From a virus, in IMG/VR virus record IMGVR_UViG_3300023175_000012, positions 1 to 64,000 of that record: 64,000 nucleotides of DNA; one strand, given 5' to 3'. The notes beneath the pieces were generated by a model. The model was not told where the DNA came from and searched no databases. It saw only the letters and a list, made by a program, of their open reading frames with translations. Positions 13,118 to 29,847 of this stretch are shown here, one piece after another; the stretch's first letter is position 1, and each line of letters starts with the position of its first letter. The translations under genes and the position numbers were made by a program.

Positions 13118-15058
13118 TATACGTTTAATTGTTATAGCACCTACCATTGCAGGGTGCAATGTACACTGATATCTATAGTTTCCTGAAATAGTTTCAGGAA
13201 CTTCCCAATACAATGTTCCGCCATCTTTACCTTGAGCGTTTGCTCCAGTCGACACATTGCCAATAATATCTACATGAATTAATCCTGTATTATATGCTGT
13301 TCCTGTACCGTCTTGAATTTCAAAAGGATGTCCTGCAATTTGATCTAAGTCAAAAGCAATAGTCATACCACCTATTGCATATAGTGTAGGATTGTTTCCT
13401 GTATAACCGTGACTGTCGCACAGATACGCAGAGTTGCCTGCATTGTTTAGGCGTAACATAGCAAATGCTGGCATATAACTTTTATCTATAGTTCTACCAG
13501 TTCGCACAACTTCTTCTAGATCGTCATATTTACTAACACCTAATGCCGCTGGCATATCGATACGCACACTGTCGCCTGTAACTGTTGTGCTTATGTTAGT
13601 ACCACCAGTAAATGTGAATGTATCTGTTGTTGTGTTAGCAGAAACACTACCTGCATCACCGTTAAATGTTAACCATAAATTTTGATCTGGATCACCACCA
13701 CCACCACTTACTGTGTCAGGTCCCCATGTACTTCCGTCCCAAACAAGTGCTTGTCCTGTTGACGGTGCAGCACTACTGACATTGTTTAAATCTCCTATGT
13801 TAGAACTTGTCGATAAAGCATCCGTTATGCCGTATCCAGCTATTGTTGTAGGAGTTCCGGATAATGAACTAAATGCTCCATCAAAAGCGTCTGTGATCCC
13901 ATATCCTGCTATAGTAGTTGGCTTGCCAGACAATGAACTAAATGCTCCATCAAAGGCGTCTGTGATTCCATATCCTGCTATTGTAGTTGGAGTATTTGTT
14001 AATGAACTAAACTGTTTATCAAATAATAAACTAGTTGTATCAGTTAAGTCGCTTACATCGGAAGGAATAGTAGGAGTATTAATAAAGTTGTTATAATTTA
14101 AAAAGTATACACCTTCAAATCCGTCAAGTGTATCTGCGTTTGCACCTACACTAACATCTACTGTAAAGTTTGAATTGTAAACCATAAACACTGGAACATT
14201 AGCACCAACAGAACCAGGTGTTAATTCTGTTCCTGTTGTATCGTCATAGAAATTAGCTCTAAATCCGTTTACAGTTTTGTTTGCAATCTCAACAGATATA
14301 TTTGCATCGCCTGCAATTTCTAAATCAGTGACAACTACATAATTAGTATTACTTTGTGCTGTATCAAATGTAAAGTCTATGTAACTGTCTGTGTTTGCAT
14401 TGTATACGTGTGCCGCACTTTGCATTTCAACAAACTGTGTTGGTGTAGTTAAGTTTCCTGCATCTATTCTAGCAAACGCAAATGGTGCAACTACTGATGT
14501 AACATCATTGCCACCGCCACCTGCGGTTAAGTCTGCACCAGGTGACCACTTAGCACCATCCCATTTTAAAACATTACCTGCAGACGGAAGATTGCTACTT
14601 GTATCGACATCTGTTAAATCGTCAATGCCTAAATTAGCTGCGCCAGCACCTGTAATAGTAAGTGTATTACCGCTAATAGCCGTACTTACTGTGCCTGCTC
14701 CTGCAACTGTTAAACTGTCAGTAGGACTAGATGCTGTTATAGTTCCTGCATCTGCATTAAATGTTTGGAATAGATTTTGATCCGGGGTTGCTACTGATCC
14801 TGTAAAATTAATTGTAACTTGGTCTCCTGATATTGCTGTTGTAATATCAGTACCGCCAACTATAGCAAAAGAATCATCTTCTGCATCTGCTGTAGTTGTA
14901 CCGCTGTCTGCTGTGAAGGTCTTAAAGACATCAGGTGCTTCTGCTGATATACCTGCGCCTGCAACTACATTCCAAGATGTACCATCCCATTGCCAAGTTG
15001 TTGTGCCATCTGTAAATGTATCGTCTATACTAGGACTGTTAGGAAAATTTAATGCCAT
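13106..15058 (-). CDS. Fibre-like virion protein with C-terminal cupredoxin-like domain
   Basis: 650 residues. N-terminal segments alternate short beta motifs (TWQWDGTSWNVVAG, DQNLFQTFNADAGT, LVWDGSTWGPDTV). Residues around 350-420 hold three near-identical copies of the phage fibre repeat SSLSGxPTTIAGYGITDAF. The last 80 residues look like a small blue-copper domain: His577 (GHPFEI), Cys632, His635 and Met638 in YQCTLHPAMVG, the same C-x2-H-x2-M loop as amicyanin. Probably a trimeric fibre or adhesin; copper binding is inference. The start overlaps the protease stop as TAATG, with a GGAGGT site and late box. Confidence 0.72.
   Translation of the reverse strand: MALNFPNSPSIDDTFTDGTTTWQWDGTSWNVVAGAGISAEAPDVFKTFTADSGTTTADAEDDSFAIVGGTDITTAISGDQVTINFTGSVATPDQNLFQTFNADAGTITASSPTDSLTVAGAGTVSTAISGNTLTITGAGAANLGIDDLTDVDTSSNLPSAGNVLKWDGAKWSPGADLTAGGGGNDVTSVVAPFAFARIDAGNLTTPTQFVEMQSAAHVYNANTDSYIDFTFDTAQSNTNYVVVTDLEIAGDANISVEIANKTVNGFRANFYDDTTGTELTPGSVGANVPVFMVYNSNFTVDVSVGANADTLDGFEGVYFLNYNNFINTPTIPSDVSDLTDTTSLLFDKQFSSLTNTPTTIAGYGITDAFDGAFSSLSGKPTTIAGYGITDAFDGAFSSLSGTPTTIAGYGITDALSTSSNIGDLNNVSSAAPSTGQALVWDGSTWGPDTVSGGGGDPDQNLWLTFNGDAGSVSANTTTDTFTFTGGTNISTTVTGDSVRIDMPAALGVSKYDDLEEVVRTGRTIDKSYMPAFAMLRLNNAGNSAYLCDSHGYTGNNPTLYAIGGMTIAFDLDQIAGHPFEIQDGTGTAYNTGLIHVDIIGNVSTGANAQGKDGGTLYWEVPETISGNYRYQCTLHPAMVGAITIKRISVI
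13815..14005 (-). repeat. Tandem ~69-bp coding repeat, about three copies
   Basis: The DNA for SSLSGxPTTIAGYGITDAFDGAF is repeated nearly identically about three times. Approximate borders. Such repeats are common in phage fibres and can change copy number by recombination. Confidence 0.75.
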
Positions 15059-16626
15059 TAGTTACCTCCACTAATATTTATCGTTCCTGATATAGCCCAC
15101 GGATTTGCTTGACCATGTCTACTATACAGCATTCTATTAGGACCGCCTAATAGTGTTAACGTATAATTATCGTAATCTGTATCAGAACCTGTTGTTGAAA
15201 TAACACTCTTACAATCTGCAAAAACTTTATCTTGTAATTGTGCAGGAGTAAGATCAGGCTGTACTTGTAAATGTAATGCACAAACACCAGCAACTTGCGG
15301 TGATGCCATAGATGTGCCTCCTATACTCATAATTTTGTATATGCTGTTAGCTGGATAATCTAAAAGTGTATATCCAGAATCTGCAATTCTACTTGATGTA
15401 CTCATTATGTTATCACCCGGTGCATAAATGTTTATTGCAGGGCCTCTTGTAGAACTATCTGCAATTTTGTCTACAGTACCGTCTACCTCTGCATCAATAT
15501 TTCCGACCATAAATGCTTCACTACTAAAAGGTGAACTACCTTGATGATATTCATATGCAAACCCACCAAAAGTTACAGTGTTATCAAAGTCTGCGCCACC
15601 GGGCACATCGGCTTTATAACGATTGTTTCCAGCCGCAATACATATGTGTATTCCGGCATCAATCATATCTTCAATTTCTGCATCAACTGAGGCTACTCTA
15701 ACTGGTAATCGCATTTGACCGAAAAATTCTCTACTTACACCTGTTGCCGCCCACAGTTCGCCTCTAGTTGTATAGTCAACTCCGTATGTCCAAGGAGTTC
15801 CTCTATATACACCGTTTGTAGGATCAGAAGATTGTGTTGATCCATACCCCCAACTCATATTTACAACAGTTGGACTACCGTTTGTTTTTGCACTATGCCA
15901 TAAACGTATAGCATCAAATGCTTGAGAGATCGGAATGCCTGTGCCATCACTTCCTGATAATGTTTCTAGCCCTTGTAACTTTTGGCTGAATATTCTAGCT
16001 CCCTTAGCCCAACCATATGTTTTGCCTGCTGCTATGCCTGCACAATGAGTGCCGTGTCCGTCGGCATCTCTATAATGGTCTGCTGATTGCGTACCTATTA
16101 GTCCAGATTCTGTATACCAGTCAATTTGCTGTAATCTACTGTTGCCAGATGCATCTTGCCATTCTGGATGTTCAGGATCAATACCGCTATCTTGAATAAC
16201 AATATCTACACCAGTGCCATCTAGTGCATAAAGATAGTCGCCTGCTATTGTAGTATTAGTTCCATATACGTTAGTTTCTTCTATACAACGTCTTAACCCC
16301 CAATTTACAAACGTTGGTGTTGTTAATGCAGCACCCGAAATACTTCTATAAAATACTCCTGTTTGTGTTGCATTACGAATTAGCTCTATATCGTCTCTTT
16401 GATCTGGTGGAATTTCTACCGATAACACTCTTGGATCTTGTCTTAGATCTTGTGCTTCTTCGTCAGTTAGCATCCAATGTGTCATACGCTTGGAACCTAC
16501 TCTAGGATCAGCAATGTCTACACTTCTGCTAGGAATAGGACCTTCTCCTGTACTTGCAGATAGTTCTGCATCAAATGCTTCTAAGTCTATTCCTCTATGT
16601 ACTACTACAATATATTCTTTTTCCAT
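15058..16626 (-). CDS. Subtilisin-like serine protease (S8 family)
   Basis: 522 residues with a full catalytic set: Asp146 (VIQDSGIDPEHPEW), His191 (DGHGTHCAGIAAG), oxyanion Asn334 (AAGNN) and Ser439 (GGTSMASPQVAG). Residues 1-75 resemble an I9-type propeptide (EYIVVVHRGIDLEAF). There is no signal peptide, so it is not exported by Sec but probably carried on the virion, given fibre genes on both sides. It may cleave host surface proteins or process fibres; the sequence does not tell. The large loop at about 260-330 between His and Asn regions is longer than in compact subtilisins. Confidence 0.93.
   Translation of the reverse strand: MEKEYIVVVHRGIDLEAFDAELSASTGEGPIPSRSVDIADPRVGSKRMTHWMLTDEEAQDLRQDPRVLSVEIPPDQRDDIELIRNATQTGVFYRSISGAALTTPTFVNWGLRRCIEETNVYGTNTTIAGDYLYALDGTGVDIVIQDSGIDPEHPEWQDASGNSRLQQIDWYTESGLIGTQSADHYRDADGHGTHCAGIAAGKTYGWAKGARIFSQKLQGLETLSGSDGTGIPISQAFDAIRLWHSAKTNGSPTVVNMSWGYGSTQSSDPTNGVYRGTPWTYGVDYTTRGELWAATGVSREFFGQMRLPVRVASVDAEIEDMIDAGIHICIAAGNNRYKADVPGGADFDNTVTFGGFAYEYHQGSSPFSSEAFMVGNIDAEVDGTVDKIADSSTRGPAINIYAPGDNIMSTSSRIADSGYTLLDYPANSIYKIMSIGGTSMASPQVAGVCALHLQVQPDLTPAQLQDKVFADCKSVISTTGSDTDYDNYTLTLLGGPNRMLYSRHGQANPWAISGTINISGGN
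15075..15082 (-). promoter_or_regulatory. Late promoter box GATAAATA
   Basis: GATAAATA inside the last codons of the protease gene, 17 bases before the 650-residue fibre gene start, with GGAGGT between. Confidence 0.6.
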
Positions 16627-16628
16627 TG

Positions 16629-17951
16629 TTATGCCTTAAATATGTAAACAGCCCCACTACCTTGGTTTTCAGCTGGAACACCTACTACCATGTAATCGTT
16701 GTTTGCTCTAATTGTATATCCAAATCTATCGTTTGTACTTGTATCGTATTTATTTGGATTTACTACAGTATTTTGATAACTCCAATCTGTTGTACTAAAA
16801 ATATGTATCACACCACTTGCTGTACCATTGTCGTCATCTTCTTCTAGTGCTCCTACAGCAAGATAATTGTCAGTTAATGCTATTGATTCACCAAATCTAT
16901 CATCTGTATTTGTATTATAGGTATTTGGATTGTTAATAGTTTGTATTAGACTACCATTAGTAGGATTGTAAATATATACACGACCGCTATTTGTGCCGTC
17001 ACTGTCTTCTCCTGGACAGCCTACCGCTGCATAACTTTCATTTAAATCAACAGCATATCCAAATCTATCGTCTAAGTCTAATGCATCCTCTTTTGGATTG
17101 TATATAGATTGGTCAGTAGCACCCGTGCTATTGTTAAATAGGAAAAATGCACCACTGTCTCCTTGGCCCAATGCACCAGGTTCGTTTTCTCGCCAGTTAC
17201 CTACCATTGTCCATGTATCAGTAATTGCGAGTGTATTAATTAATTGACCTATTTGATCTCCAGGATATTCATCTTCTGCATCTAAATTAGGATTCTCAAT
17301 AGAATGATCTAAGTTATAATTATTATTTAAATCAAAAATGTAAATCCAACCAGTGTCATCTCCAATGCCTACAGCATTTTCTCTGTATGCACTTATAGAA
17401 GCATAGTTTTCTGTTAGAGCTACGTTTTGACCAAATGCATCACCATTGGGGTTAACTTCTGTTGTATTAGGATTGGGGTCATCGAATGTATGAACTAAAT
17501 TGCCATTTGTTACATCAAACAAATATGCTTTACCGTTGTTATCTGTTGTATCGTTTTCATTAGGTGCGCCTACAAGTACATAGCCCGTATTTAAGGCAAC
17601 ACTAGTTCCAAAACTGTCGCCGTCGCCTGCATTTATTGGTGCTACAGGATTAGGATCGTCTATAGTTCTTAAATAGTTTCCAGTGCTTGAATACAAATAA
17701 ACTTTACCTTGGGAGGGGACTCCGTTTGCATCCTGTTCCCCTGGTGCGCCTACGGCAATAAAATTACCATGTATTGCAACAGATGTTCCAAAAGCATCTG
17801 ATTGTGCAATTCCTTCCGGATTTGGATTTTCTAAATATCTTAATAATTTGAAGGGTGTTACTTTAGGTTGAAAATATTGTAAAGAACTTACTGAGCTATA
17901 TCTTGGCATAGTTTTTATCCATAATTTACATAACTGCCTAAAACGTTCCAA
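16629..17951 (-). CDS. FG-GAP-type seven-bladed beta-propeller protein
   Basis: 440 residues. Seven repeats of about 55 residues run from residue ~45 to the end, each with D-x-FG-x-x-V/I-A-x...Y-x-x-VGAPxE..G.x-Y-I/L, as in DAFGTSVAIHGNFIAVGAPG and DRFGYAVDLNESYAAVGCPG. Repeats 3 and 4 are degenerate. FG-GAP propellers bind ligands on integrin-like and lectin-like proteins, so this is a candidate receptor-binding or adhesin component. It has no signal peptide. Its start overlaps the upstream fibre gene by 37 bases; a later Met (MPRYSSVSS, residue 15) could be the true start. Confidence 0.8.
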   Translation of the reverse strand: MERFRQLCKLWIKTMPRYSSVSSLQYFQPKVTPFKLLRYLENPNPEGIAQSDAFGTSVAIHGNFIAVGAPGEQDANGVPSQGKVYLYSSTGNYLRTIDDPNPVAPINAGDGDSFGTSVALNTGYVLVGAPNENDTTDNNGKAYLFDVTNGNLVHTFDDPNPNTTEVNPNGDAFGQNVALTENYASISAYRENAVGIGDDTGWIYIFDLNNNYNLDHSIENPNLDAEDEYPGDQIGQLINTLAITDTWTMVGNWRENEPGALGQGDSGAFFLFNNSTGATDQSIYNPKEDALDLDDRFGYAVDLNESYAAVGCPGEDSDGTNSGRVYIYNPTNGSLIQTINNPNTYNTNTDDRFGESIALTDNYLAVGALEEDDDNGTASGVIHIFSTTDWSYQNTVVNPNKYDTSTNDRFGYTIRANNDYMVVGVPAENQGSGAVYIFKA

Positions 17952-19411
17952 GAACCTCCTGAGCGTATCATGGATAAAGTTATTACATCTGTTTTGTTTG
18001 CATTTCCTGTTGGAGCAACATTATCTATCCATTTCACTGTTTGAGTTACACCGTCAATCTGCACTACGTTAGGCACATATGGTGTTGTACCTTGTGTAAT
18101 TATAAATGCTATATTTGTTGCTCTGTTTTCTGTTGCAGGTACATTTGTAATATTTGCTGTCCAATTAGCTGCTGGAGATAAAATATTAAAAATAGGACCG
18201 CCTGAATAGTTATGGTTAACTGTACCCGTAACTCCAGTTTCGTTTGTAATTACTTCATTAGTTTTAAGTACATTTTCTAGTCTTATACCGTCTGGAGCAA
18301 TAAAATCTATAGTACTTGCACTTGTAAATGTAGGATTACCAATTCCTGTATTTTGTATATTTGCTGCATTTATACTGTCAACAGTTAATACACCGGTTGC
18401 TGTTATATCATCAAATGTTACATCATCTGTAGTATTAAGATTTTGATCGTATGTAGAGCCACCACCGCCGCCGGAGCTGTTTATTGTAATAGTATTTGTT
18501 GTATTATCTACGTCTAGTGTAACATTTGCTCCAGGAGCAAAATTTAAAGTATCGCTATTTCCTGACGCAATAATACTATCAGGATCACCACTTACTGTCA
18601 CATTTTTAAATGTGTTAACAGAAGGTAAAGGTGTAGTAGGCTGAACCCATTGACTACTGTCATCATCTGTTATGTAAATGTAAATTTTACCAGTTGAACT
18701 ATCAAACCATATATTACCTGCTTCTGGAGATGTAGGTGGTGTATCACTAACATCAACACTAGCACCACCGCTTGCACCACCTGTTCCTGGTTCTGCAACA
18801 GTAATAGAATTTCCCATGCCGGTATGATTTTTACACCAGTAATAAAGTGTAGTAGGCGTATCGTTTGTAACTGTAATCTGTACTTGACGTGTTATAGCTT
18901 CGTTGAATTTATCGTAGTATACAGCTCGTGTTACAGGATCATCATTTATATAATATCTAACATTGTCTTCATATGCTGTTCCGCCTACATCTAATTCGCC
19001 GTTTAGTGTTGTTGAAAATGCAAGTTGATGTTCGTTTAGGGTACCGCCTGTTGGATTTGGATAATAGACATTAGTAGGATCTGTTTGATCAAATACATAT
19101 GTATAACCTATAACAAATGTTAGTTCAGGTTTGTATTCACCATTAAGGATATACTTATTACCTTCACCTTGGTTTTCAACGACAACATTATACTGTACAG
19201 TTGCAACCTTAGCATTAGAAATATTTCGTTGTAAATTATCTTCAGTAACAACAGTATAGCCGCCAGCTAATTTTCCGCTGTATACACGTAAGGTATTTGC
19301 TTGTTTATCAAAGAATACTTCACCGCTAGAACCGACATTACGATCTAAGAAATCGTCAGGTCTTGGTATAATGCGTATTCTATCTACTACTGGTGCTGAA
19401 TTTGATGCCAT
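17915..19411 (-). CDS. Fibre-like virion protein with cupredoxin-like domain
   Basis: 498 residues. Residues 1-65 form a small beta module (GEVFFDKQANTLRVYSGKLA). Residues about 72-205 look like a cupredoxin domain with candidate copper ligands His128 (NEHQLAFS), Cys193, His196 and Met199 (WCKNHTGMG). The middle has a fibre motif (TPPTSPEAGNIWFDSSTGKI); the C-terminal half is beta-rich (DQNLNTTDDVTFDDITATG, typical of phage fibres). Late box at 19434-19441. Likely an appendage protein; copper binding is unproven. Confidence 0.7.
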   Translation of the reverse strand: MASNSAPVVDRIRIIPRPDDFLDRNVGSSGEVFFDKQANTLRVYSGKLAGGYTVVTEDNLQRNISNAKVATVQYNVVVENQGEGNKYILNGEYKPELTFVIGYTYVFDQTDPTNVYYPNPTGGTLNEHQLAFSTTLNGELDVGGTAYEDNVRYYINDDPVTRAVYYDKFNEAITRQVQITVTNDTPTTLYYWCKNHTGMGNSITVAEPGTGGASGGASVDVSDTPPTSPEAGNIWFDSSTGKIYIYITDDDSSQWVQPTTPLPSVNTFKNVTVSGDPDSIIASGNSDTLNFAPGANVTLDVDNTTNTITINSSGGGGGSTYDQNLNTTDDVTFDDITATGVLTVDSINAANIQNTGIGNPTFTSASTIDFIAPDGIRLENVLKTNEVITNETGVTGTVNHNYSGGPIFNILSPAANWTANITNVPATENRATNIAFIITQGTTPYVPNVVQIDGVTQTVKWIDNVAPTGNANKTDVITLSMIRSGGSWNVLGSYVNYG

Positions 19412-19447: not shown

Positions 19448-19672
19448 TTAGTATATGACTCGCTTGTAATGCTTCCAAGTATCTAAAAAGTAATTGAATG
19501 CTTCTTCGTCATTCATTGTAACAAACTGTTTACAATGGCTTATTTTTATTCTAAAGCCGGCCATACGTCTATGTTGCACAGAGTAATTTAACCAATGTGC
19601 ATGCGCATCATTCATAAATTTAGTGTCTTTGTTTGCGTACAAACTTATTTCAACCTTGTGAAAACTACTCAT
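19448..19672 (-). CDS. Small uncharacterised protein, last gene of the enzyme operon
   Basis: 74 residues with many His and Tyr (HWLNYSVQHRRMAGFRIK, ISHCKQF, LDTWKHYKRVIY). Looks like a small alpha/beta domain. No family recognised. Overlaps the preceding gene by eight bases, so it is translationally coupled to the enzyme operon. Confidence 0.65.
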   Translation of the reverse strand: MSSFHKVEISLYANKDTKFMNDAHAHWLNYSVQHRRMAGFRIKISHCKQFVTMNDEEAFNYFLDTWKHYKRVIY

Positions 19673-20429
19673 GCCATTTTACTTCCTTTAATGGTTTGTA
19701 GTCTACAATAAATCTATTATCTAATATAGTAGATCGTAGCCTTAAGTTTTTAATATCTTTATCAGTTACATCTCTTATTTCTGCATCAATCTTGTCTTTC
19801 TTTACAAGCATATATTGAGCAAGAGGAGTACCCGCAGGTATCTTAGTAACATTATTTAGTTCGTGCCAGTATAGCTGAACATTTAAAAAGTTTGGTCCTT
19901 CGTCCCCGTCGATCAGTCCAGTAGCAGCTGTAAAACTATGATTATCTGGATAGGGAATAGGCATACTCATTAAATAATAACCTTTAGGAATATAAACTAT
20001 CCAAGGTGATTGTACCTTAATAACAGTATCTAGTGTATTTCTTTTATCTACTTGTCCAAATATTGACTCTGCATGATGTGACAAATAATCCCATTTCCAA
20101 ATATGATCTGCATCTACAGTTTGCTGAGATACTGGTGTTGCCCATTGAAAAGATTTACCATCACCATCTGTTTTTATTGTAAAGTCACACCAGCTGCGTA
20201 AAATCCAACCTTCACGCATAATTTTGTGTATGCCAGGGCACCTAGCAATGTGTGTTAGTTTTGTAGGTAGTTGTTCATGTTTTTCTTTAAGTTTTTTCCA
20301 ATCTTCCATAGCAGGCTTGATCCAATCAAACTTCATTTTACTAGCAGGAATAATAGGCATAATTTGATTTACTTCTGGTAATAGAGCAACAAATTCTACT
20401 TTTGGTTTTTTCTTAAAAAAACTAAACAC
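19665..20429 (-). CDS. Uncharacterised protein, paralogue of the 20838-21581 gene
   Basis: 254 residues. Starts MFSFFKKKPKVEFVALLPEV, then PIIPASKMKFDWI, RCPGIHKIMREGWILRSW (about 65-82), a beta-rich core with SPWIVYIPKGYYLMSMPIPY, and IPAGTPLAQYMLV (about 195-207). It shares these landmarks with the 247-residue gene two positions upstream, so the pair arose by duplication. The IPAGTPLAQ-type loop and beta pattern hint at a jelly-roll. No catalytic residues recognised. Overlaps both neighbours by eight bases. Confidence 0.75.
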   Translation of the reverse strand: MFSFFKKKPKVEFVALLPEVNQIMPIIPASKMKFDWIKPAMEDWKKLKEKHEQLPTKLTHIARCPGIHKIMREGWILRSWCDFTIKTDGDGKSFQWATPVSQQTVDADHIWKWDYLSHHAESIFGQVDKRNTLDTVIKVQSPWIVYIPKGYYLMSMPIPYPDNHSFTAATGLIDGDEGPNFLNVQLYWHELNNVTKIPAGTPLAQYMLVKKDKIDAEIRDVTDKDIKNLRLRSTILDNRFIVDYKPLKEVKWHE

Positions 20430-20838
20430 GAATGTTCTCCTTATACTTCTTATCTAATTGATTAAGTAGTGAATTTGTAACAGTCCAAGAGACAATATCA
20501 TCAACATGAATTAATTTAATATTACCATCTGGTTTGGTATAAAAAGTAACGTGATGAATTTCTTCAACATCTTCTCCTAAAACGTTTTCAACGGTAGTAG
20601 GCACTTCTGGTAACGGTTCGGCGCCAGCACAATTTTTAGATGCTATAACTTGCTGAATACCGTTAGCACCATCTTTATATAATAACACCATATCTTTTGC
20701 AGATAGAACTATGTTAAACCATCCTACATGCTTTATTCTATCTTTTTGAACTTTGCGAGCTGTATATTGATCTTTAGCAACTCTTAGTGTTTGAGTATAT
20801 GTTACAAATTCTTCTGTATTTGATTCTTGCAACGGCAT
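20422..20838 (-). CDS. Uncharacterised protein in the enzyme operon
   Basis: 138 residues. N-terminal half beta-like (FVTYTQTLRVAKDQYTARKV), middle VVLSAKDMVLLYKDG-like strand, then a Pro/Glu linker and a second strand-rich part ending in a basic helix (LLNQLDKKYKENIRV). No family recognised. It sits between the two paralogous unknowns and overlaps its neighbours by one and eight bases. Confidence 0.65.
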   Translation of the reverse strand: MPLQESNTEEFVTYTQTLRVAKDQYTARKVQKDRIKHVGWFNIVLSAKDMVLLYKDGANGIQQVIASKNCAGAEPLPEVPTTVENVLGEDVEEIHHVTFYTKPDGNIKLIHVDDIVSWTVTNSLLNQLDKKYKENIRV

Positions 20839-21581
20839 TATTTTTCTCCTTGAAAATGCTTTCTATACATTTCTTTAATTAATGATTTATTATGTTTAAA
20901 AGAATGTGTTCCCCAGAATAGTCTTTTTCTAAAAAATCTAAAATCATTCTCATTCATTTCTCTAATTATATAGTCATATCTTTTTTCAGTTAATGGAATA
21001 ATATGAGCAATAGGAGTACCTGCTGTTAATTTGCGTTCTCCGTTTGGTATATTCCAGTAACCTTGTATATTTAATTCTGTGTTTATAGCAGGATCTAACA
21101 CACCTATACTAGATTCAAACTCATAACTATCACTATATGCAATAGGTGTTATTAAAAATTTTACACCCTTAGGTGCAATAACATTCCAAGGCGTATTAAA
21201 TTTTACAATAGCTTCAATACTATGAGGGCGTTTTGGCAACCATTTAGATATTTCAGGTGGTTGACTTGTTACAGGGTCGCCTTCTAGTAGTTTACTAAGT
21301 GTTTGACTAGGATTTACATATTGAAATCCTTGTTGTCCTGCTTGTGTCTTAATTATAACATCGTGCCATAAAGGCAAAATAAATCCATAATTGTAAAGAT
21401 CAAAAATTCCAGGGCATTGATATAGATGGCTAGGCAAGTTTCTATCCTTGTTGTCAATGTAATTTTGTTTACACCGTGACATCCACTTAGGACGAAAATC
21501 TTTAGCAGGTATAATAGGATATGCTTCAGCAACTCCGTCTATTTTACTAAAAAATTCTATCTTATCTTTCTTCTTAAACAT
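20838..21581 (-). CDS. Uncharacterised protein, paralogue of the 19665-20429 gene
   Basis: 247 residues. Landmarks shared with its paralogue: MFKKKDKIEFFSKIDGVAEA, PIIPAKDFRPKWM, CPGIFDLYNYGFILPLWHD, FNTPWNVIAPKGVKFLITPI, and TAGTPIAHIIPLTEKRYDYI. The conserved CPGI...W-x-D patch and the PKG and AGTP loops are the best candidates for a functional site. No known family recognised. Immediately follows the 2OG oxygenase gene (TAATG overlap); the association suggests a substrate- or product-binding partner. Confidence 0.75.
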   Translation of the reverse strand: MFKKKDKIEFFSKIDGVAEAYPIIPAKDFRPKWMSRCKQNYIDNKDRNLPSHLYQCPGIFDLYNYGFILPLWHDVIIKTQAGQQGFQYVNPSQTLSKLLEGDPVTSQPPEISKWLPKRPHSIEAIVKFNTPWNVIAPKGVKFLITPIAYSDSYEFESSIGVLDPAINTELNIQGYWNIPNGERKLTAGTPIAHIIPLTEKRYDYIIREMNENDFRFFRKRLFWGTHSFKHNKSLIKEMYRKHFQGEK

Positions 21582-22156
21582 TATCTAACCTGTATTGTAA
21601 ATGCAATATTCATTCTCTGCCTATTACTAGTATTAGTTTCAACTTCGTGTGGCACCCAAGCAGGCCATAGTATTAGTTCTCCATCTGTAGGATAAACTAA
21701 AACTTCTCTTGTATAAGGAGAAATTGGATTACAATCGTTTAAAACATTTCCTGGATTTATAAACTTTAATGCTCCTGTATCTTTTCCTTGTACATAGTAC
21801 ACAGCCGCAAAACTATCAGCAACATGATTATGCAATACATTTCTACTACCAGGTTCATTTATATTAGACCAGTAATCTAAACTAATATGTTTTTCCTTGA
21901 TATGTTTTTTAAATGTACTATCAAATCCTGTATAATAATTAATTGCTTGTTCAGTTGCGGTTTTTACGCCGTCTAATAGCCAGTTAATATTTGAATATTG
22001 TACGGTACTTCTCCAGCAACCTGCATTACTCATGTTAATAGATTCAACATCATCAACATGTGCTTGATGCATCTGCTCTTTTAAGTCTATTAGTTCAGAT
22101 TCATTGCCTATTTTAGTTACAAAAAAATCTGATTTAAATAAACCTACTCTTTCCAT
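21581..22156 (-). CDS. 2-oxoglutarate/Fe(II)-dependent oxygenase
   Basis: 191 residues, the size of the compact double-stranded beta-helix dioxygenases common in marine phages. The first metal motif is in NVLHNHVADSFAAVYYV (His109, His111, Asp114 candidates), then GALKFINPGN, the distal His170 in LWPAWVPHEV, and Arg181 in NRQRMNIAFTIQ for 2-oxoglutarate. It resembles the prolyl-hydroxylase-like group. It would hydroxylate a residue or small molecule. It overlaps the halogenase gene by 13 bases, strong evidence that the two act in one pathway. Confidence 0.85.
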   Translation of the reverse strand: MERVGLFKSDFFVTKIGNESELIDLKEQMHQAHVDDVESINMSNAGCWRSTVQYSNINWLLDGVKTATEQAINYYTGFDSTFKKHIKEKHISLDYWSNINEPGSRNVLHNHVADSFAAVYYVQGKDTGALKFINPGNVLNDCNPISPYTREVLVYPTDGELILWPAWVPHEVETNTSNRQRMNIAFTIQVR

Positions 22157-23652
22157 TCACTATACCACTTATCTAAAAATTTGTAATGATTACCAAATAA
22201 TTCTTTAGCACTTTCTACTCTTACATCTTGTACTTTCATAAAATGTTCTATATACTGTTTTTGTTTATCTGTAAGATCAGATTTTGCATTAGGGTATGCT
22301 CCGCCAGCATGTAGCATACTCCACCATTGTATACTACTAAACATACTTCCGGGTGTAAAGAATATAAAATCACCTAAATTAGGATAGTATTGACTCATCA
22401 TCATTCTGCCATCTGCTGGTAATTCGTCTAGTGTTTTTGATCTAATTTCCTGCCAGTAAGGAGTATCATTCCTACTACTAAAATAATAGTGTGCATAAAT
22501 GAATGTGAGTATTTCTATACTCATTTCATAAAAACCTCTATTAATCATTGCCATAGGTTGTTCGTCCCAAACATTACCTGTACGATTTAACAAATCAGCA
22601 AGTGATGTTACTAATGCTGTAGTAAATGTAATACCTGTTGCTTCTAAAGGTTCAACAAATCCTGCACTTAGTCCTACACCTAAAACATTTTTAACAGCAA
22701 TGTTTTCATGAGAGCCGATACGCATTTTTAAATGGTTTGCTGGCGCTTCGTATTCGCCTATTGCTTCTCTAAGTTCTGCTTCTGCTTCTTCTGGTGTTAT
22801 ATGTTTTGAACTATATACATATCCGTTACCTATTCTATGGTAAGTTGGAATTGTCCAACGCCAGCCTGCTTTCATTGTTGTTGCTTTTGTATAAGGAAAA
22901 CATTCTTCTTCTGGATTAGTATATTGCGTTGGCATTGCAACAGCACTATCATTTATTAACCAATCGTTATAACTTATAAATGGTTCTTTTAGTGTTTTAC
23001 CAAGTAGGATAGATTGAAATCCTGTGCAATCTATATATAGATCTGCTTTATAATTTACACCTTTGTCGTCAATTAATTTTGTAATACCAGTTACATCGCT
23101 ACCTACTTGTGTTATTTTAGTATCTACATAATCTATTCTATCTAAAATTAATTTTTTAATTGTATCAATTATATCAAATGCACTAAAATGCACAGCACCG
23201 TAACTGTCTAATCCTACATTAAAATTAATATCAGTTGCATCATCTATTTTTGTTGCTGTATTGTTTTTTGCTAACCTGTATGCAGGATGCCACTTTTTAA
23301 ATTCGCTATAGGGCTTGTCTATAAAATATTTGCTGACTGGCAAATGAGGTGCCGGAAGTACATTGTCAACTACATCATTATCTACAAAATATGGCTCGTC
23401 ATTCCAGCCAGTAAGTTCTACGCCATACTTAAATGCCGCATTACTTGGCTTCATCCAATCTTTAGCATCTATACCACACTTATATAAGAATGATGCTGTT
23501 AATGGCTGAGTGCCTTCTCCTACACCAATTGGACCTTTAGATGCATCTTCAATTAATTGTATTTCTACAGGTTGAATTAAATTATTAGTAAGATATGCAG
23601 CTGTTAACCAACCACTAGTGCCGCCACCAAAAATTATTATTTTTTTTAACAT
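22144..23652 (-). CDS. FAD-dependent halogenase, tryptophan-halogenase family
   Basis: 502 residues, full length for the family. The FAD motif is GGGTSG (9-14); GVGEGTQP (43-50) is the usual second flavin region; Lys75 aligns with the catalytic Lys79 of PrnA/RebH; GWRWTIP (263-269) is the family signature; GFVEPLEATG (331-340) holds the candidate catalytic Glu. With FADH2, halide and O2 such enzymes make hypohalous acid and halogenate indoles, phenols or other electron-rich groups. A flavin reductase is not in the window. Viral members are known from marine phages (VirX1). The start overlaps the preceding stop (TAATG). Confidence 0.92.
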   Translation of the reverse strand: MLKKIIIFGGGTSGWLTAAYLTNNLIQPVEIQLIEDASKGPIGVGEGTQPLTASFLYKCGIDAKDWMKPSNAAFKYGVELTGWNDEPYFVDNDVVDNVLPAPHLPVSKYFIDKPYSEFKKWHPAYRLAKNNTATKIDDATDINFNVGLDSYGAVHFSAFDIIDTIKKLILDRIDYVDTKITQVGSDVTGITKLIDDKGVNYKADLYIDCTGFQSILLGKTLKEPFISYNDWLINDSAVAMPTQYTNPEEECFPYTKATTMKAGWRWTIPTYHRIGNGYVYSSKHITPEEAEAELREAIGEYEAPANHLKMRIGSHENIAVKNVLGVGLSAGFVEPLEATGITFTTALVTSLADLLNRTGNVWDEQPMAMINRGFYEMSIEILTFIYAHYYFSSRNDTPYWQEIRSKTLDELPADGRMMMSQYYPNLGDFIFFTPGSMFSSIQWWSMLHAGGAYPNAKSDLTDKQKQYIEHFMKVQDVRVESAKELFGNHYKFLDKWYSEWKE

Positions 23653-25361
23653 TAAATTTCCTCTATCGAAATTATATTTTCTTCTGGCTTAGATATTACA
23701 AGTATGTATAATCCGTTCCACCAACTTTCTAAATCTTCTACATCACATAACAGCATTTTTTCATATGCAACTTCAAACCCTGTTTTATTAATTCCGTTTC
23801 TTGCGCCTTCAACAACTCCTTGCCAATTAGCATCATCAAATATTAAAACAGCTTCGTCTGCAAATGTATCTTTATAATGTATAACAGCTTGTTCTGTACT
23901 TGTTGCATCATGAGGTCCGTCATAAAACCACATGTCTATTTTACCATTATATTTTGATACATCTGCTTCAAATAAATCTTTATCAATTACATCTACGTTG
24001 TTTTCTTGTTTATACTTGTCTAGATTCTTTAAAAAGTTTTCTTTTTCGTTATGTGGTAATCTTGGTGCATTTGGATCAGCAGGCTGTATATCACTTTGCC
24101 AGTCGTCAATTGCTACAGCATCTAACTTATTGTCTTTGATTGCACCACAGAATGTTGCACCTTGTGCTACACCTACTTCCATATAGTGTGTACTACCACT
24201 TGCAATATGATTAAGAACTGTTTGTACTCTACTACTAGTTAATCCTGGTATTTGTGTATTAACTGTTGGAACACCGCTTATAAGAATACTTTCAGCAACA
24301 TGCTTTACTTTATTTGTATGTTCAATTTTTGATTTAACTTTGTAAATATCATCACAAAAATGACATTCCCAACAATCAAATTTACAATTTTTAATTTTTT
24401 TACGCCAAGCATCAATTGGACGATCTTTTAAATTTGTACTACTTAGATAATTTTCAAAGTTATCAAAAAGTATTTTTTCATTATTTGCCCATCTTTTTAC
24501 AATATCCATTGTTTCGTAAAGTCTGCTAACAGCTTCTCTACCATGCATTTTAAAAACGTCAATGCCAAAATCATTTAAAAATTCGTCCCAATCTTCTCTC
24601 CAAGGAGGAATGTTTGCTGTTTTTAAATGAATACTAGGATCATCTACGTCCCACTTTGGACAACTAACTCTACTAATAGCATTGTTAAAATATTGTGGCT
24701 CATTTCCTGCTCTAGTATTATTGTATTCAAAATGTTCAACCATCATAGGACAGTTACCTTTACATCCTTCATTTGCTAGTAAACTATAATGTATTTCTTT
24801 TCCGTAATTCTCTTTAATCCAATCTTTAGCTTCTTTAAGACGTTGTAAAGTATCTCGATCTCTCATTAAGTCTCTGTCAAGATTAATATAGTCAAATCCA
24901 TATTTTGCTAGATGAACTATTTCTGCCGCAACTCTTACATCTCTTAATATAGTATTTTTTACATAAAGTTCCGGAAATGCTCGTTTAATTTGTCCTGTTG
25001 CCATCCAATGTGTATGCGGAATAGTAGCAATACGTATACCTTTGTCATATAAAGGTTTAAAATGCTTTATAAAAGTATCAAGATTTTTTTGACTTGGTGG
25101 AATTTGTATATTATTAAATGTAGCACTAATAGGAACTCCTGTTCTTTCTTGTACAAACAGTGCTTGATCTATTGCTAAGTTATAATCTTCGTCTAATACA
25201 AATATATCTCCCATTGCATCTTGTGTAAAGGGTGGGATTCTACATGTAAAATATATGTCTTTAATATAGTCTTTATATTGTTCGACAAAATTTATAAACT
25301 CTATATATTGCTCGTTAGAGAGTTTTGGGTTAAGAGGTATACTAAAAACTTTTTGATTCAT
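23652..25361 (-). CDS. Fusion: U32-like TIM-barrel domain plus class I methyltransferase
   Basis: 569 residues. Residues ~1-300 resemble the U32 family (UbiU/RlhA type): a barrel with NTILRDVRVAAEIVHLAKYG, Cys200-x3-Cys204 (EGCKGNCP), Cys234, and GIDVFKMHGREAVSRLYETM, the equivalent of the family's K-x-x-GR strand. A second cluster, Cys326, 330, 333 and 336, could complete an iron-sulphur site. Residues ~370-560 form a methyltransferase-24-like domain: SAM motif EVGVAQGATF and WFYDGPHD. U32 proteins often perform oxygen-independent hydroxylation of tRNA, rRNA or quinone precursors. The combination on one chain is unusual. First gene of the operon, GGAAGA site. Confidence 0.75.
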   Translation of the reverse strand: MNQKVFSIPLNPKLSNEQYIEFINFVEQYKDYIKDIYFTCRIPPFTQDAMGDIFVLDEDYNLAIDQALFVQERTGVPISATFNNIQIPPSQKNLDTFIKHFKPLYDKGIRIATIPHTHWMATGQIKRAFPELYVKNTILRDVRVAAEIVHLAKYGFDYINLDRDLMRDRDTLQRLKEAKDWIKENYGKEIHYSLLANEGCKGNCPMMVEHFEYNNTRAGNEPQYFNNAISRVSCPKWDVDDPSIHLKTANIPPWREDWDEFLNDFGIDVFKMHGREAVSRLYETMDIVKRWANNEKILFDNFENYLSSTNLKDRPIDAWRKKIKNCKFDCWECHFCDDIYKVKSKIEHTNKVKHVAESILISGVPTVNTQIPGLTSSRVQTVLNHIASGSTHYMEVGVAQGATFCGAIKDNKLDAVAIDDWQSDIQPADPNAPRLPHNEKENFLKNLDKYKQENNVDVIDKDLFEADVSKYNGKIDMWFYDGPHDATSTEQAVIHYKDTFADEAVLIFDDANWQGVVEGARNGINKTGFEVAYEKMLLCDVEDLESWWNGLYILVISKPEENIISIEEI

Positions 25362-25380
25362 TAAGATTTGTCTTCCATAA

Positions 25381-25419
25381 AAAAAGGTGCTATACTTTTA
25401 CTTATTATAGCACCTTTTT
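25381..25419. terminator. Strong hairpin terminator at the enzyme operon boundary
   Basis: A perfect 14-bp inverted repeat (AAAAAGGTGCTATA and its complement) with an 11-base loop, A/T tracts on both sides, so it can work on both strands. It ends the late transcript coming from 25438 and separates it from the enzyme operon. Confidence 0.88.
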
Positions 25420-25432
25420 AACAAAAAGTAAA
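25404..25432 (-). promoter_or_regulatory. Sigma70-type promoter of the enzyme operon
   Basis: TTTACT (25427-25432), 17-bp spacer, TATAAT (25404-25409) on the minus strand. The -10 is perfect and lies inside the upstream arm of the terminator hairpin. Transcription would begin near 25397. No late box precedes the operon, so host-polymerase, possibly early, expression is likely. Confidence 0.72.
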
Positions 25433-25437
25433 GTGAA

Positions 25438-25971
25438 TTAATCGTATAATTGTTGACTAAATTTTGTTGTTGTAAACTGTGGGGTTTTCTCTTGATTTGC
25501 TGTATAAGCACACTCCCATTCAAAATAGGTAGCCATATACATTTGTGTTTCTTCTAATGTTCTTAAACCAGGTACTTGAGCTCTAATCTGTATTAAGCCT
25601 GTTTCGTCTGTAAAATGATTTTCTGCCCAATTTAACATCTGTGCCTTTAAAAGTGCTACAGCATTTGACTCATCAATAGAATTTAGTCTGTAAGCAACTT
25701 TCTCGTAGTCATTGTCGCCTTCACTTGTTGGTTGGATGATATCTGAAGGATTATCTACTTTTCGCATAATACCAACTTCGCCGTTTAATGCATTAGTAAA
25801 ATGTCTTGCATGAAACATTGCTTCTGTGATCGTAGTAGGTTTTAACCATTCAATAATAGGAGTGCCAGTTATTCTAGCAAAACTAAAATGCCAGTCACTA
25901 CCTATAATTTCAATTTCTGGTACTAGCCTAGGGTCGTTACCAGGCACTGTTTCAAACATTATATATGTCAT
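25438..25971 (-). CDS. Uncharacterised protein, possible fibre accessory
   Basis: 177 residues: N-terminal strands (MTYIMFETVPGNDPRLVPEI, IEWLKPTTITEAMFHARHF), then helices with LLKAQMLNWAENHF and a C-terminal Gln/Thr-rich tail. No signal peptide or membrane segment. No family recognised. Overlaps the 289-residue gene by 20 bases and is followed by the strong terminator, so it ends the fibre operon. Confidence 0.65.
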   Translation of the reverse strand: MTYIMFETVPGNDPRLVPEIEIIGSDWHFSFARITGTPIIEWLKPTTITEAMFHARHFTNALNGEVGIMRKVDNPSDIIQPTSEGDNDYEKVAYRLNSIDESNAVALLKAQMLNWAENHFTDETGLIQIRAQVPGLRTLEETQMYMATYFEWECAYTANQEKTPQFTTTKFSQQLYD

Positions 25972-26821
25972 TTATTGTCTCCTCAGAGCCTCCATTAGTT
26001 TGTGGTTTTGGATTTTCTATTACATCGTATTTATCTTGCGGGGCAAGTAGTTCTTTATTATCAAACTTTGATTGTAATTTAAGATTTTCTTCTGCTTTTT
26101 GTTGTAGTTGAAGATTGTAATTTTGTAATTGTGTACTATAATTCATTGTTAGTGCTAGTATGTCTGCTTGTTGTTCAGGTCCAACACTAAGGATAGCATC
26201 CATGTTACCTGTACCAATGCGTCCATAGAATATCATATCTGTAGCTGCTTGTTTAGCTAGTCTATTAGTCCAATACTCTGCTTCGTAAATATCTTCTTCG
26301 TCTGTATTTAAAACATCCATATAAGTACGACCACTACCATCTGGTAGTTGTGCTTCGTCACTATCTAAAAACTCTTGTAAAAGATCTAGTAAGTGTTGTC
26401 TTTCTAAATACCAATCTTGCAATCTACGCTTCGACATAATATGATTACGTTCTGCATTCCACGCTTCAACACTGGCTAATTCTCTATCTAGTTCATCATG
26501 AGCTTCTTCAGCCATACGTTTAAAACGTCTAACTTCTACATCATACTTTGCAATTTCGTATTCGATGTTTTCAATTGATTCTTCCTTAGATTTAATTTCT
26601 AATAGATATTGTCTTAATTTACTGTATGGTGTAATTTGAGCTTGACCTACAAACCATCTTAATTTGTACTTAGGGTTAGTCCATTCTTTGTTAATTGCAT
26701 AACTAATTGCACCCTTTTCGCGTTCGTTAAGCATTGAAACATCTGTATTAACAGTGCTCTCATATCTATGATCAGACATATATTGCTTGCGACGATCGAC
26801 ATTTTGTACATCATTTGTCAT
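25952..26821 (-). CDS. Coiled-coil protein of unknown function
   Basis: 289 residues, strongly helical. Residues ~70-150 form a charged coiled coil (SIENIEYEIAKYDVEVRRF, MAEEAHDELDRELASVEAWN). A second helical part (~180-245) includes YWTNRLAKQAATDMIFYGRI. Late-like GGTAAATA box at 26850-26857 and AAGGAG ribosome site. Position at the end of a run of fibre genes is where T4-like phages keep fibre chaperones; a chaperone role is inference from position and coiled coil only. Confidence 0.65.
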   Translation of the reverse strand: MTNDVQNVDRRKQYMSDHRYESTVNTDVSMLNEREKGAISYAINKEWTNPKYKLRWFVGQAQITPYSKLRQYLLEIKSKEESIENIEYEIAKYDVEVRRFKRMAEEAHDELDRELASVEAWNAERNHIMSKRRLQDWYLERQHLLDLLQEFLDSDEAQLPDGSGRTYMDVLNTDEEDIYEAEYWTNRLAKQAATDMIFYGRIGTGNMDAILSVGPEQQADILALTMNYSTQLQNYNLQLQQKAEENLKLQSKFDNKELLAPQDKYDVIENPKPQTNGGSEETINDIYNV

Positions 26822-26860: not shown

Positions 26861-27889
26861 TTAATCCCTCCAAGACATCGTTGCTGAACTTTGTCCATTA
26901 ACTCCTTTAGCATTAAGGCTTGCTCCGCCTGTAATACTTTGTCTAGTAGTGTATGTAAATTTAGCACTACTTACAACGTGTGAACCTTGATACCAGCCAA
27001 TAGCATAGCCCCAATCTTGTCCAACAACCATGTTTTCTTCACCACCGTAATAACCTTTTGTTCCAATAACGTCCTGTGTAGTATCGCTATAAAAGTTTGT
27101 TTCTCTCCAGTTTGAACTTGGATTACCTTCACGTCCAGCAACCATATTAGCATGCTTAAACATAAGAGCATGCTGGTGTTTGTCACCTTGTGGTGATGTA
27201 GCACTACGTCCGTATGGTGTTTCTGTTGCCCATTTAAAGCCTTGGTTATTAGTACACCAAATACCGTAATTTTCGTGTTGAATCCCCCAAATACCGCCTG
27301 ATGTATTTGAGTTTCCATATTGTGAGCCAAGGGTTTGAGTAATCATGTTAAAACGTCTAATTTGACTACTACCACCGCCTGTAATCCATGCTGTTGTTAA
27401 ACCTTGCTGTATAATACCAATGTTATTAGCACTCCATGTATGAGTTCTAGTGTAGCCGCTTGTAATATTGTTTTCTGTTCTATGATTGTAGCAAGTAATA
27501 CCGTTACTTGCTGCACAGTGAGCATTAGCTGCTCCTCCTACAGTCCAACACAAGTCACTGTTGTGCATGCTGTCTTTGTAGTTGTGTCCTCTTTCTTGTT
27601 TACCTGCTAAGTCAACAGTTGTATCTGTAGCAAATGTGACTCTGTTAGTTTCGTCCCATACCACACTACTAGCATACCCGCCATGAACATATCCTGTAGT
27701 AATAATTTGTCTTGTTAGGAAAGGAATAGCCATGTTAGTCCACTGGCCTCCATCTTTATCATGAAAAACTTCTATCCTACCAAAGTTACCGTTATACCTA
27801 ATATCACCCGATTCATGAACTCCATCGCCTGCACCAGGTAATGTTAAGTGACCAGTATCACTAATTGTAGTGTTTTTTAAATTAGCCAT
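26861..27889 (-). CDS. Tail fibre-like protein
   Basis: 342 residues. N-terminal block MANLKNTTISDTGHLTLPGA followed by DIRYNGNFGRIEVFHDKDGG is shared with the next two genes. The C-terminal 250 residues (RQIITTGYVHGGYASSVVWD to the end) form a Trp- and Gly-rich beta domain homologous to the C-terminal part of the 652-residue gene, including QDWGYAIGWYQGSH against QDHAYQLGCFNGAQ. The change of neighbours with a constant N-terminus suggests attachment by the N-terminus and receptor binding by the C-terminus. Confidence 0.75.
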   Translation of the reverse strand: MANLKNTTISDTGHLTLPGAGDGVHESGDIRYNGNFGRIEVFHDKDGGQWTNMAIPFLTRQIITTGYVHGGYASSVVWDETNRVTFATDTTVDLAGKQERGHNYKDSMHNSDLCWTVGGAANAHCAASNGITCYNHRTENNITSGYTRTHTWSANNIGIIQQGLTTAWITGGGSSQIRRFNMITQTLGSQYGNSNTSGGIWGIQHENYGIWCTNNQGFKWATETPYGRSATSPQGDKHQHALMFKHANMVAGREGNPSSNWRETNFYSDTTQDVIGTKGYYGGEENMVVGQDWGYAIGWYQGSHVVSSAKFTYTTRQSITGGASLNAKGVNGQSSATMSWRD

Positions 27890-29847
27890 TAATTATCTCT
27901 CCATGCGCCTAGTCCTGAACTAGATCCTGCTTTACCTTTTGGCTGCATAGAAACTCCTCCTGTAAAACCAGACTCGGTATAATAGTTCCAACGGAAACTA
28001 TCATTATTTTGCGCACCATTAAAGCAACCTAACTGGTAAGCATGGTCTTGTCCCATTGTAAAGTTTTCTTCACCGCCGGTAACAGGCTTAGCGTATGTAT
28101 TTGCTGTAGTTCTAGTAATCCAGTTTGTTCTTCGGAAGTTTACACCACTAGCATAGCCACCTTCGTTACCTGCCCAACAATAGTTTAATTTACTATTCAT
28201 AGACTTTTGTTGGTGATGATTACTTGGGAATGTACCGCTCCATGCACCGTAAGTTTCTGTAGTGAATTGGAATAATGTACCATCGTTATCTCTAGTAAAC
28301 ATTCCTTCATTTTCCCAACTCATGCCCCATGCTTGTACTGTTGATCCGCCTGGTGCACCGATGCCTACAGTTGATTGTGTTTCAGTAAGCATGTTGTATC
28401 TGTCAAGTTCTGCACTTCCTGATACCCACGCCATATAGTGTTCTTTCCATATAGTGCCGTCTTGTAACTTATTACCACTTAGGTTTCTATCAAATGTACC
28501 TGTATACTGTTGGTCAGTACGCATGTTAAATCCTATAACATAGTTTGATTGTACAGCGTGACCGTTACCTGCACCAAACACCCATGCTACGTTTTTACTA
28601 CAAGCACCTGACTGATAGTTGAATGCTCTTTCTAATGAATTGTCACCTAAATTAACAGTAGTGTCTGTTGCTATAGAACATCTATTTACATTATTCCATG
28701 CACTACTTGATTTATAACCACCTAACATATAGTTAGTTGTAATATGTGTTCTTTCTTTAAACGGAATAGATAAACTTTGCCATGTAGCATCTGAACTGTA
28801 AAATTCTGCTTCACCTGTGGTAGTATTGATTCTCATTGCACCTTGTGCTGTTTCTTGGGTAGGATTAGTTGTATTATATCTAACAATAACAATACCTGAT
28901 CCGCCATTACCACCGTAGTTATTTGAATTGTAGTGGGCGCCACCGCCTCCGCCACCGCCAGTGTTTGCGCCTGCATTGCCGCCTGGAGTGTTAGCCCATG
29001 TACTAGTGCCACCTCCGCCACCGTCGGCTCCGTTGTTGTAACCTACACCACCATATGTACTGTTAACGGCTCCACCGCCACCACCACCTAGGCCGCCGTC
29101 GCCGCCTGTGTTAGAGTATCCAGAGCCACCGCCACCGCCGCCCCAAAAAATTGGTTCGCCGGTAATTGTAATTTCTGCGCCTCTACCACCATGTGGTCTT
29201 GGATAAGAAGTTCCAGGTTCTCCAGCGCCGCCTCCGCCGCCTGGATACCAATAACCTGATCCCCACGATCCGTCATGTCCTTGTTCTGGATAAATTGATC
29301 TACCTCTTGAGCCACCTCCGTAGCCGCCGTTACCAATTAGTCCGTTATCATTAATTGTTCCGTTTGCACCACCGCTTGGAGGAACAGCACCACCTGATGC
29401 GCCTCCACCTGATGCGCCGTCTCCTGCTGGTGAAGTTGATCTATCGTGACAACTTGCGCCTCCGCCTCCACCATATGCTGTAATACTACCAAATACTGAG
29501 TTTCCGCCGTTGCTACCTCTTGCTTGACCAACACCTGCTGATGCTCCTGCGCCACCGCCTCCAATTGTAATTGAAATACTTTGTCCAGGTACTGTAGGAT
29601 AATTCCCGTCATAAACTACGCCGCCGGCTCCACCGCCGCCGCCCATATCAGAGCCGCCTCCGCCGCCTCCGCCAACAACTAGTACTTCGACACTGTCAAC
29701 ACCGCTCGGTACAGTCCAACTTGTGTTTCCTACACTTGTAAAGTATACTAATGTACCAGCAACAGTTGCTAATCTTTGTGCTTCTGATCCGACAGGCAAG
29801 CTCAAGTAACCTATGTCGTTTATTATTGTACTTTTAAGTATAGCCAT
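27889..29847 (-). CDS. Tail fibre-like protein with glycine-rich domain
   Basis: 652 residues. N-terminal MAILKSTIINDIGYLSLPVG block; a glycine-rich domain (about 45-330) opening WTVPSGVDSVEVLVVGGGGG and full of GGGGG tracts, similar to phage adhesin glycine-rich domains with polyglycine helices; then MRINTTTGEAEFYSSDATWQ and a C-terminal domain (about 365-652) homologous to the 342-residue gene. Polyglycine adhesin domains bind surface receptors. DNA here is locally GC-rich. Directly abuts the next gene (shared base). Confidence 0.8.
   Translation of the reverse strand: MAILKSTIINDIGYLSLPVGSEAQRLATVAGTLVYFTSVGNTSWTVPSGVDSVEVLVVGGGGGGGSDMGGGGGAGGVVYDGNYPTVPGQSISITIGGGGAGASAGVGQARGSNGGNSVFGSITAYGGGGGASCHDRSTSPAGDGASGGGASGGAVPPSGGANGTINDNGLIGNGGYGGGSRGRSIYPEQGHDGSWGSGYWYPGGGGGAGEPGTSYPRPHGGRGAEITITGEPIFWGGGGGGSGYSNTGGDGGLGGGGGGAVNSTYGGVGYNNGADGGGGGTSTWANTPGGNAGANTGGGGGGGAHYNSNNYGGNGGSGIVIVRYNTTNPTQETAQGAMRINTTTGEAEFYSSDATWQSLSIPFKERTHITTNYMLGGYKSSSAWNNVNRCSIATDTTVNLGDNSLERAFNYQSGACSKNVAWVFGAGNGHAVQSNYVIGFNMRTDQQYTGTFDRNLSGNKLQDGTIWKEHYMAWVSGSAELDRYNMLTETQSTVGIGAPGGSTVQAWGMSWENEGMFTRDNDGTLFQFTTETYGAWSGTFPSNHHQQKSMNSKLNYCWAGNEGGYASGVNFRRTNWITRTTANTYAKPVTGGEENFTMGQDHAYQLGCFNGAQNNDSFRWNYYTESGFTGGVSMQPKGKAGSSSGLGAWRDN

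Follow-up and report, generated by a model that had tools for sequence, protein, structure and literature searches.

Here we describe seven overlapping genes embedded in the tail-fibre region of an uncultivated T4-like phage, whose order, protein families, catalytic residues and control element are shared with relatives, and which we tentatively read as an accessory oxidative-tailoring operon, separately transcribed and acting on an aromatic small molecule or on some component of the host, with free tryptophan excepted. This is the explanation that we favour, at a confidence falling somewhat short of even. The window analysed (the whole stretch of 64,000 nucleotides) is part of a 115,784-bp virus record; within it, genes A to G are minus-strand open reading frames running from 25361 down to 19448, with tail-fibre genes on either side:

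25362-25437, minus strand: composite control element, a predicted intrinsic-terminator hairpin AAAAAGGTGCTATAATAAGTAAAAGTATAGCACCTTTTTTT with an extended -10 TGCTATAAT in its 5' arm/loop
23652-25361, minus strand: A, U32-like TIM barrel joined in one chain with a class-I O-methyltransferase-like domain (PF13578), both predicted
22144-23652, minus strand: B, predicted flavin-dependent halogenase, PF04820
21581-22156, minus strand: C, predicted 2OG-Fe(II) oxygenase, PF13759
20838-21581, minus strand: D, phrog_7084, dUTPase-like fold (predicted structure), putative halogenase-adjacent partner
20422-20838, minus strand: E, conserved protein, fold not assigned
19665-20429, minus strand: F, GTG start; phrog_7084, D paralogue
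19448-19672, minus strand: G, conserved small protein, 74 aa
19433-19440, minus strand: ATAAATAC motif of late-promoter type, preceding the next fibre gene (17915-19411)

The overlaps measure 1 bp for A/B, C/D and D/E, 8 bp for E/F and F/G, and 13 bp for B/C, confirming an earlier sequence-only reading that had described seven overlapping frames joined by 1-13 bp. That reading also saw the operon as splitting a run of fibre genes, and indeed fibre-type genes lie on both flanks, with head, tail-tube and tail-sheath genes farther out; likewise, profile matches uphold its assignment of a halogenase (B), a 2OG oxygenase (C) and a paralogous pair (D/F). No recognised assembly enzyme appeared among the family profile matches of A-G, a set that includes tailoring enzymes, and megablast of the window's first 25 kb retrieved no near relative among cultured phages. 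Elsewhere in the window, a subtilisin-like serine protease gene (phrog_3677 protease; 15058-16626, minus strand) sits in the fibre region and is kept in many relatives, a glycine-rich fibre/adhesin-like protein (27889-29847, minus strand) is encoded upstream of the operon, and two adjacent genes (2029-3192 and 3293-3919, minus strand), the second much shorter, both match tail-tube families (phrog_4542).

Protein A was proposed as a U32-like/methyltransferase fusion, a description that the structural comparison and the C-terminal profile support and that finds no Pfam U32 match behind it. Its AlphaFold model (mean pLDDT 86.6) matches the U32 peptidase Mk0906 (5d88) with a Foldseek E of 2.2e-6, a TM of 0.69 by target length and 11% identity, and other TIM barrels match the model as well; the Pfam peptidase U32 family is absent from the matches of 39 family members. 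The N-terminus may thus be called U32-like on the strength of its predicted fold. Seven cysteines (C200, C204, C234, C326, C330, C333 and C336) are invariant in 42/42 sequences, among which two belong to cultured cyanophages, and include C-x3-C and C-x3-C-x2-C-x2-C arrangements, a spacing unlike what we take to be the four-cysteine Fe-S spacing of U32 proteins. The C-terminus matches PF13578 (E=4.5e-10), as do 39/39 family members, and its best fold matches in the PDB include the O-methyltransferases 5x7f, SafC 5lhm and Rv0187 6jcl, with YrrM giving a weak profile match to A. Positions E395, G397 and G401 are kept in 42/42 sequences and D481, D509 and D510 in 41/42, providing the SAM-binding motif and acidic residues expected of a class-I, COMT-like O-methyltransferase, as which we predict this domain. 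PDB sequence searches with A and D returned nothing convincing. When genome contigs were searched with A, two short contigs (L105 and L106) turned up, from MAGs labelled Euryarchaeota and Dehalococcoidia; by eye, L106 contains fibre-type and 2OG-like frames, and both are probably phage sequence misbinned in those MAGs.

The prediction of B as a halogenase is founded on a PF04820 match (E=1.4e-90) together with the GxGxxG motif, catalytic Lys and Glu, and WxWxIP motif that characterise flavin-dependent halogenases. No change is seen at K75, at W264 or at the glycines of GxGxxG in 34/34 aligned rows, nor at E337 in 35/35, with position 266 of WxWxIP being W in the window and F in 14 relatives. 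The best PDB sequence matches are tryptophan halogenases of the PyrH/AbeH type (8fov, 2wet), which share the catalytic Lys/Glu of B; the cyanophage halogenase VirX1 (6qgm) is also matched, at ~31% identity in the alignment. In AbeH, comparison with PyrH/Trp has put the lid residues Gln160/Gln164 at the carboxylate of tryptophan (PMC11840605). This lid is not conserved in B, whose alignment to 8fov shows a gap and nothing equivalent to the lid, making free tryptophan an unlikely substrate. C exceeds the PF13759 cut-off (E=2.1e-15) and keeps H109, H111, H170 and R181 invariant, and we therefore predict it to be a 2OG-Fe(II) oxygenase. Across these alignments key catalytic residues are invariant, and the loss in homologues that the earlier reading had named as evidence against itself is not seen.

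D and F both belong to phrog_7084; DUF6065 stays below the cut-off for this pair, with 2/46 members matching at a best E of 0.14. The AlphaFold model of D (pLDDT 93.8) matches dUTPases in Foldseek at an E of about 3e-4, and because the query TM is low (0.3-0.4) we read the resemblance as a shared fold core. D163 is nearly invariant in the D alignment. We considered D as an enzymatic dUTPase and set this aside, since neither the full catalytic motif set nor phosphate-binding (P-loop-like) motifs could be recognised by eye in the alignment. VirX1 and canonical dUTPases are both trimeric; a role for D as a halogenase partner is suggested by the adjacency of the two genes. Profile searches gave no convincing family match for E or G. 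Sixteen aligned homologues of G share a SH(D)K...W..Y motif. A RiPP-like precursor was also considered for G or E and rejected, both proteins being conserved over much of their length. In L011, L014 and their relatives, a small J-domain-like gene, recognised from its sequence, lies between F and G.

To place the operon among its relatives, uncultivated contigs were gathered by similarity to A, D and the B alignment and annotated by profile, with near-identical copies collapsed before loci were counted. The figures that follow describe this lineage, given that loci were picked by similarity to the window's genes. Of 59 non-redundant halogenase loci whose upstream sequence is long enough, 55 have A upstream of B at a distance of two genes or fewer, A adjoining B in 40 and standing one gene apart from it in 15; counted in reverse, B lies at most two genes from A in 53/65 A loci. 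Among the 57 A-B loci having 5 kb downstream, C is found at most two genes downstream of B in 48 and D within four genes of B in 48, any 2OG enzyme within four genes in 54, E within four genes in 33, and a DUF401 permease, absent from this record, at most six genes away in 15. Gene order is kept down to about 53% identity. Furthermore, in 63/63 uncultivated loci A has up289 (phrog_1409; window 25952-26821, minus strand) no more than four genes away, and A adjoins fibre genes even at loci with no halogenase. Pairwise Nei-Gojobori dN/dS between the window and L003, L004, L006 and L010 spans 0.007-0.41 for the operon genes (two G values not computable), with synonymous sites near saturation. An order kept in dozens of contigs, dN/dS at or below 0.41 where computable and invariant catalytic residues together argue that the gene set is not a chance assembly.

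Several relatives carry further genes around the cluster. A second, divergent halogenase-like gene occurs in the same cluster in L038, L044, L052 and L128; heme oxygenase and bilin reductase homologues lie near the halogenase in L034, L174, L180, L182 and L184, confirmed by profile in L034 and assigned by homology label elsewhere. Downstream of D in L048, L159 and L160 are a DUF401 permease, a Dps/ferritin-like gene and a TonB-dependent-receptor-like frame, the last with no Pfam match, and a DUF401 permease directly follows A in L071, L072, L074, L075 and L080, loci with no halogenase.

The linkage is not universal. Four non-redundant loci carry the halogenase and no A: in L138 and L149 the frame next to the halogenase resembles a DNA polymerase, judged by sequence, and in L182 and L184 the halogenase is followed by the heme oxygenase and bilin reductase homologues; in none of these four records, all of them fragments, was A, C or D found. 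Six cultured records were searched whole: P-HM2 and S-CAM4 yielded A, while Syn10, S-RIM44 and HTVC008M yielded B, and no record yielded both, A lying in fibre regions of the cultured cyanophages with no halogenase found in the genomes tested. Co-occurrence across phage genomes, which the sequence-only reading had proposed as a check on its claim, is therefore borne out for A and B in 55/59 loci and fails in the cultured phages tested and in a few contigs with halogenase and no A. The coherent tailoring pathway that the reading envisaged is accordingly favoured by this linkage, by the intact catalytic residues and by purifying selection, and is called into question by the separation of its genes in some phages and contigs. 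D keeps company with the halogenase more widely, adjoining it in the cultured cyanophages Syn10, where it overlaps the VirX1 gene, and S-RIM44, and lying beside it by coordinates in P-TIM40, S-CREM1, Sf-FP1 and Sf-FR1; a D relative also occurs, with no halogenase, in halovirus HRTV-15.

Between A and the gene upstream of it, a 76-bp gap is predicted to form a terminator-like hairpin (-16.7 kcal/mol, z=-4.5), whose 5' arm/loop holds the extended -10 of a candidate sigma-70-like promoter, TTTACT-17-TATAAT. Such a hairpin is present in 16/56 halogenase loci, where shuffled sequences give a rate of 0.010, and in 0/15 loci with no halogenase. Compensatory changes at 5/13 pairs preserve the structure across 14 hairpins, a biased sample hand-picked from loci having one, and in 14 of the 16 hairpin loci the extended -10 begins 4-8 bases inside the stem. 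The extended -10 itself occurs before A in 20/43 gaps, and among the other gaps in 7/230 (Fisher p=4e-13, to be taken as indicative only, the motif having been chosen after viewing the alignment and the gaps of one locus not being independent). In a plain consensus scan, promoter-like sites over the region as a whole were no commoner than in shuffles; before A the mean promoter score is only slightly higher (8.32 vs 7.56 in shuffles), and many other loci have a best score ahead of A that does not exceed shuffles.

Neighbouring fibre genes bear NATAAATA motifs, reported as the late promoter of cyanomyoviruses, for which a sigma-70-like recognition sequence has been discussed in connection with earlier transcription (PMC2984593). 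ATAAATA is found in 23/38 orthologous gaps before the next fibre gene, compared with 0/43 gaps before A. The ten matches to ATAAATAC in the window, all on the minus strand, are not significantly above shuffles overall, and TATAAATA is rarer than expected (2 vs 9.5), so support for reading them as late promoters comes from position and from the relatives. With a terminator and extended -10 before A, and NATAAATA motifs at the fibre genes, A-G probably form an insulated transcription unit apart from the late fibre transcript, with early or middle timing, as judged from these predicted elements. In cyanosiphophage Mic1, a putative halogenase belongs to the middle-phase genes (PMC11237433). The link between operon and fibres implied by the earlier reading is weakened by this apparent promoter of the operon's own, set behind a terminator.

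Under the explanation that we favour, upstream fibre transcripts would end at the hairpin before A, while the sigma-70-like promoter inside it would start a separate A-G transcript that, lacking the 5' arm of the hairpin, would escape termination; the downstream fibre genes would restart at NATAAATA late promoters. The U32-like domain of A, presumed to carry an Fe-S cluster, would hydroxylate an aromatic ring and the methyltransferase domain would O-methylate the new hydroxyl, after which B would halogenate the activated ring and C would hydroxylate. D and F would act as non-catalytic dUTPase-fold partners, binding or presenting substrate to the halogenase, and the substrate would be modified from early or middle infection onward. 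Doubtful, to our minds, is the further proposal that hydroxylation and methylation of an aromatic by A, and halogenation by B with a dUTPase-fold adaptor, yield a phage-specific halogenated product and that the native substrate of VirX1 is of a similar kind.

A metabolite or host component is favoured as target by the early control and by halogenases in non-fibre contexts, whereas the constant neighbour up289 (63/63) and the presence of A in cyanophage fibre regions with no halogenase found point, for A, to a virion target; we rank the former above the latter, though not by much. In the virion version, which we consider somewhat unlikely, the operon would modify a tail fibre, up289/up177 or another virion protein, hydroxylating, O-methylating and halogenating aromatic residues, with C hydroxylating other residues, to tune receptor binding or stability. 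Its setting between fibre genes, never far from up289, and the occurrence of A in fibre regions of cultured cyanophages lend this weight, as does the open active site of VirX1, which takes large substrates (PMC8407142); the insulated sigma-70-like promoter and the halogenases found elsewhere with no A argue the other way.

It is unlikely, in our judgement, that these are unrelated accessory genes, independent in their action, that have collected in a hypervariable island. Such an origin would accommodate the separation of A and B in the cultured phages tested, the few contigs with B but no A, C or D, and the hypervariability described for this host-recognition cluster of related phages (PMC7029224), but sits poorly with overlapping genes whose order is kept to about 53% identity, with the one shared control element and with the 55/59 linkage. 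Very unlikely, finally, is action on RNA or nucleotides, whereby a U32-like hydroxylase and an O-methyltransferase would produce methoxyuridine-type modifications and the dUTPase-fold partners would bind pyrimidines. TrhP and TrmR give just such a tRNA modification by successive hydroxylation and O-methylation, and reportedly one study is devoted to tRNA hydroxylation and U32 peptidases; the two folds joined in one chain in A, its weak YrrM profile match and the dUTPase-like fold of D are in keeping with this. However, D has no dUTPase phosphate-binding motifs recognisable by eye, no RNA-binding domain was found in the operon proteins, and we know of no halogenated RNA bases in phages.

Returning to the oxidative-tailoring operon that we favour, its closest parallels lie among systems already described. 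Halogenase and 2OG genes are documented in cyanophages (PMC3037559; PMC10452541), and A-G is a variant of these known phage halogenase/2OG clusters. In the VirX1 neighbourhood of Syn10, too, a PF04820 halogenase and, next to it, a phrog_7084-type protein are encoded downstream of structural genes; this neighbourhood differs in lacking A and in having two tandem halogenases. The halogenated-metabolite cluster predicted for cyanophage S-SSM6a, with a secondary metabolite or capsule decoration as its expected product, also combines a halogenase with 2OG oxygenases, yet includes carbamoyltransferases and a HemK-like methylase (PMC7824862), families with no match among A-G. In the literature covered, which left most subscription journals outside, we found no description of the A fusion, of an operon joining it to B-C-D, of the D-halogenase pairing or of the control element. 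Bacillus subtilis TrhP/TrmR, a U32-type hydroxylase followed by an O-methyltransferase on tRNA, resemble A, which differs in being a single fused phage protein with seven invariant cysteines, in not matching the Pfam U32 model and in lying beside a halogenase.

VirX1, the viral halogenase that has been characterised, has broad in vitro activity, and accessible sources do not state its native substrate. The conserved operon, in which a fixed set of enzymes comes with a dUTPase-fold partner that recurs, offers a concrete pathway and a candidate complex. The composite terminator/promoter suggests, furthermore, that enzymes encoded as an operon amid late structural genes can be expressed on a separate schedule, and location in a fibre module need not imply a fibre function.
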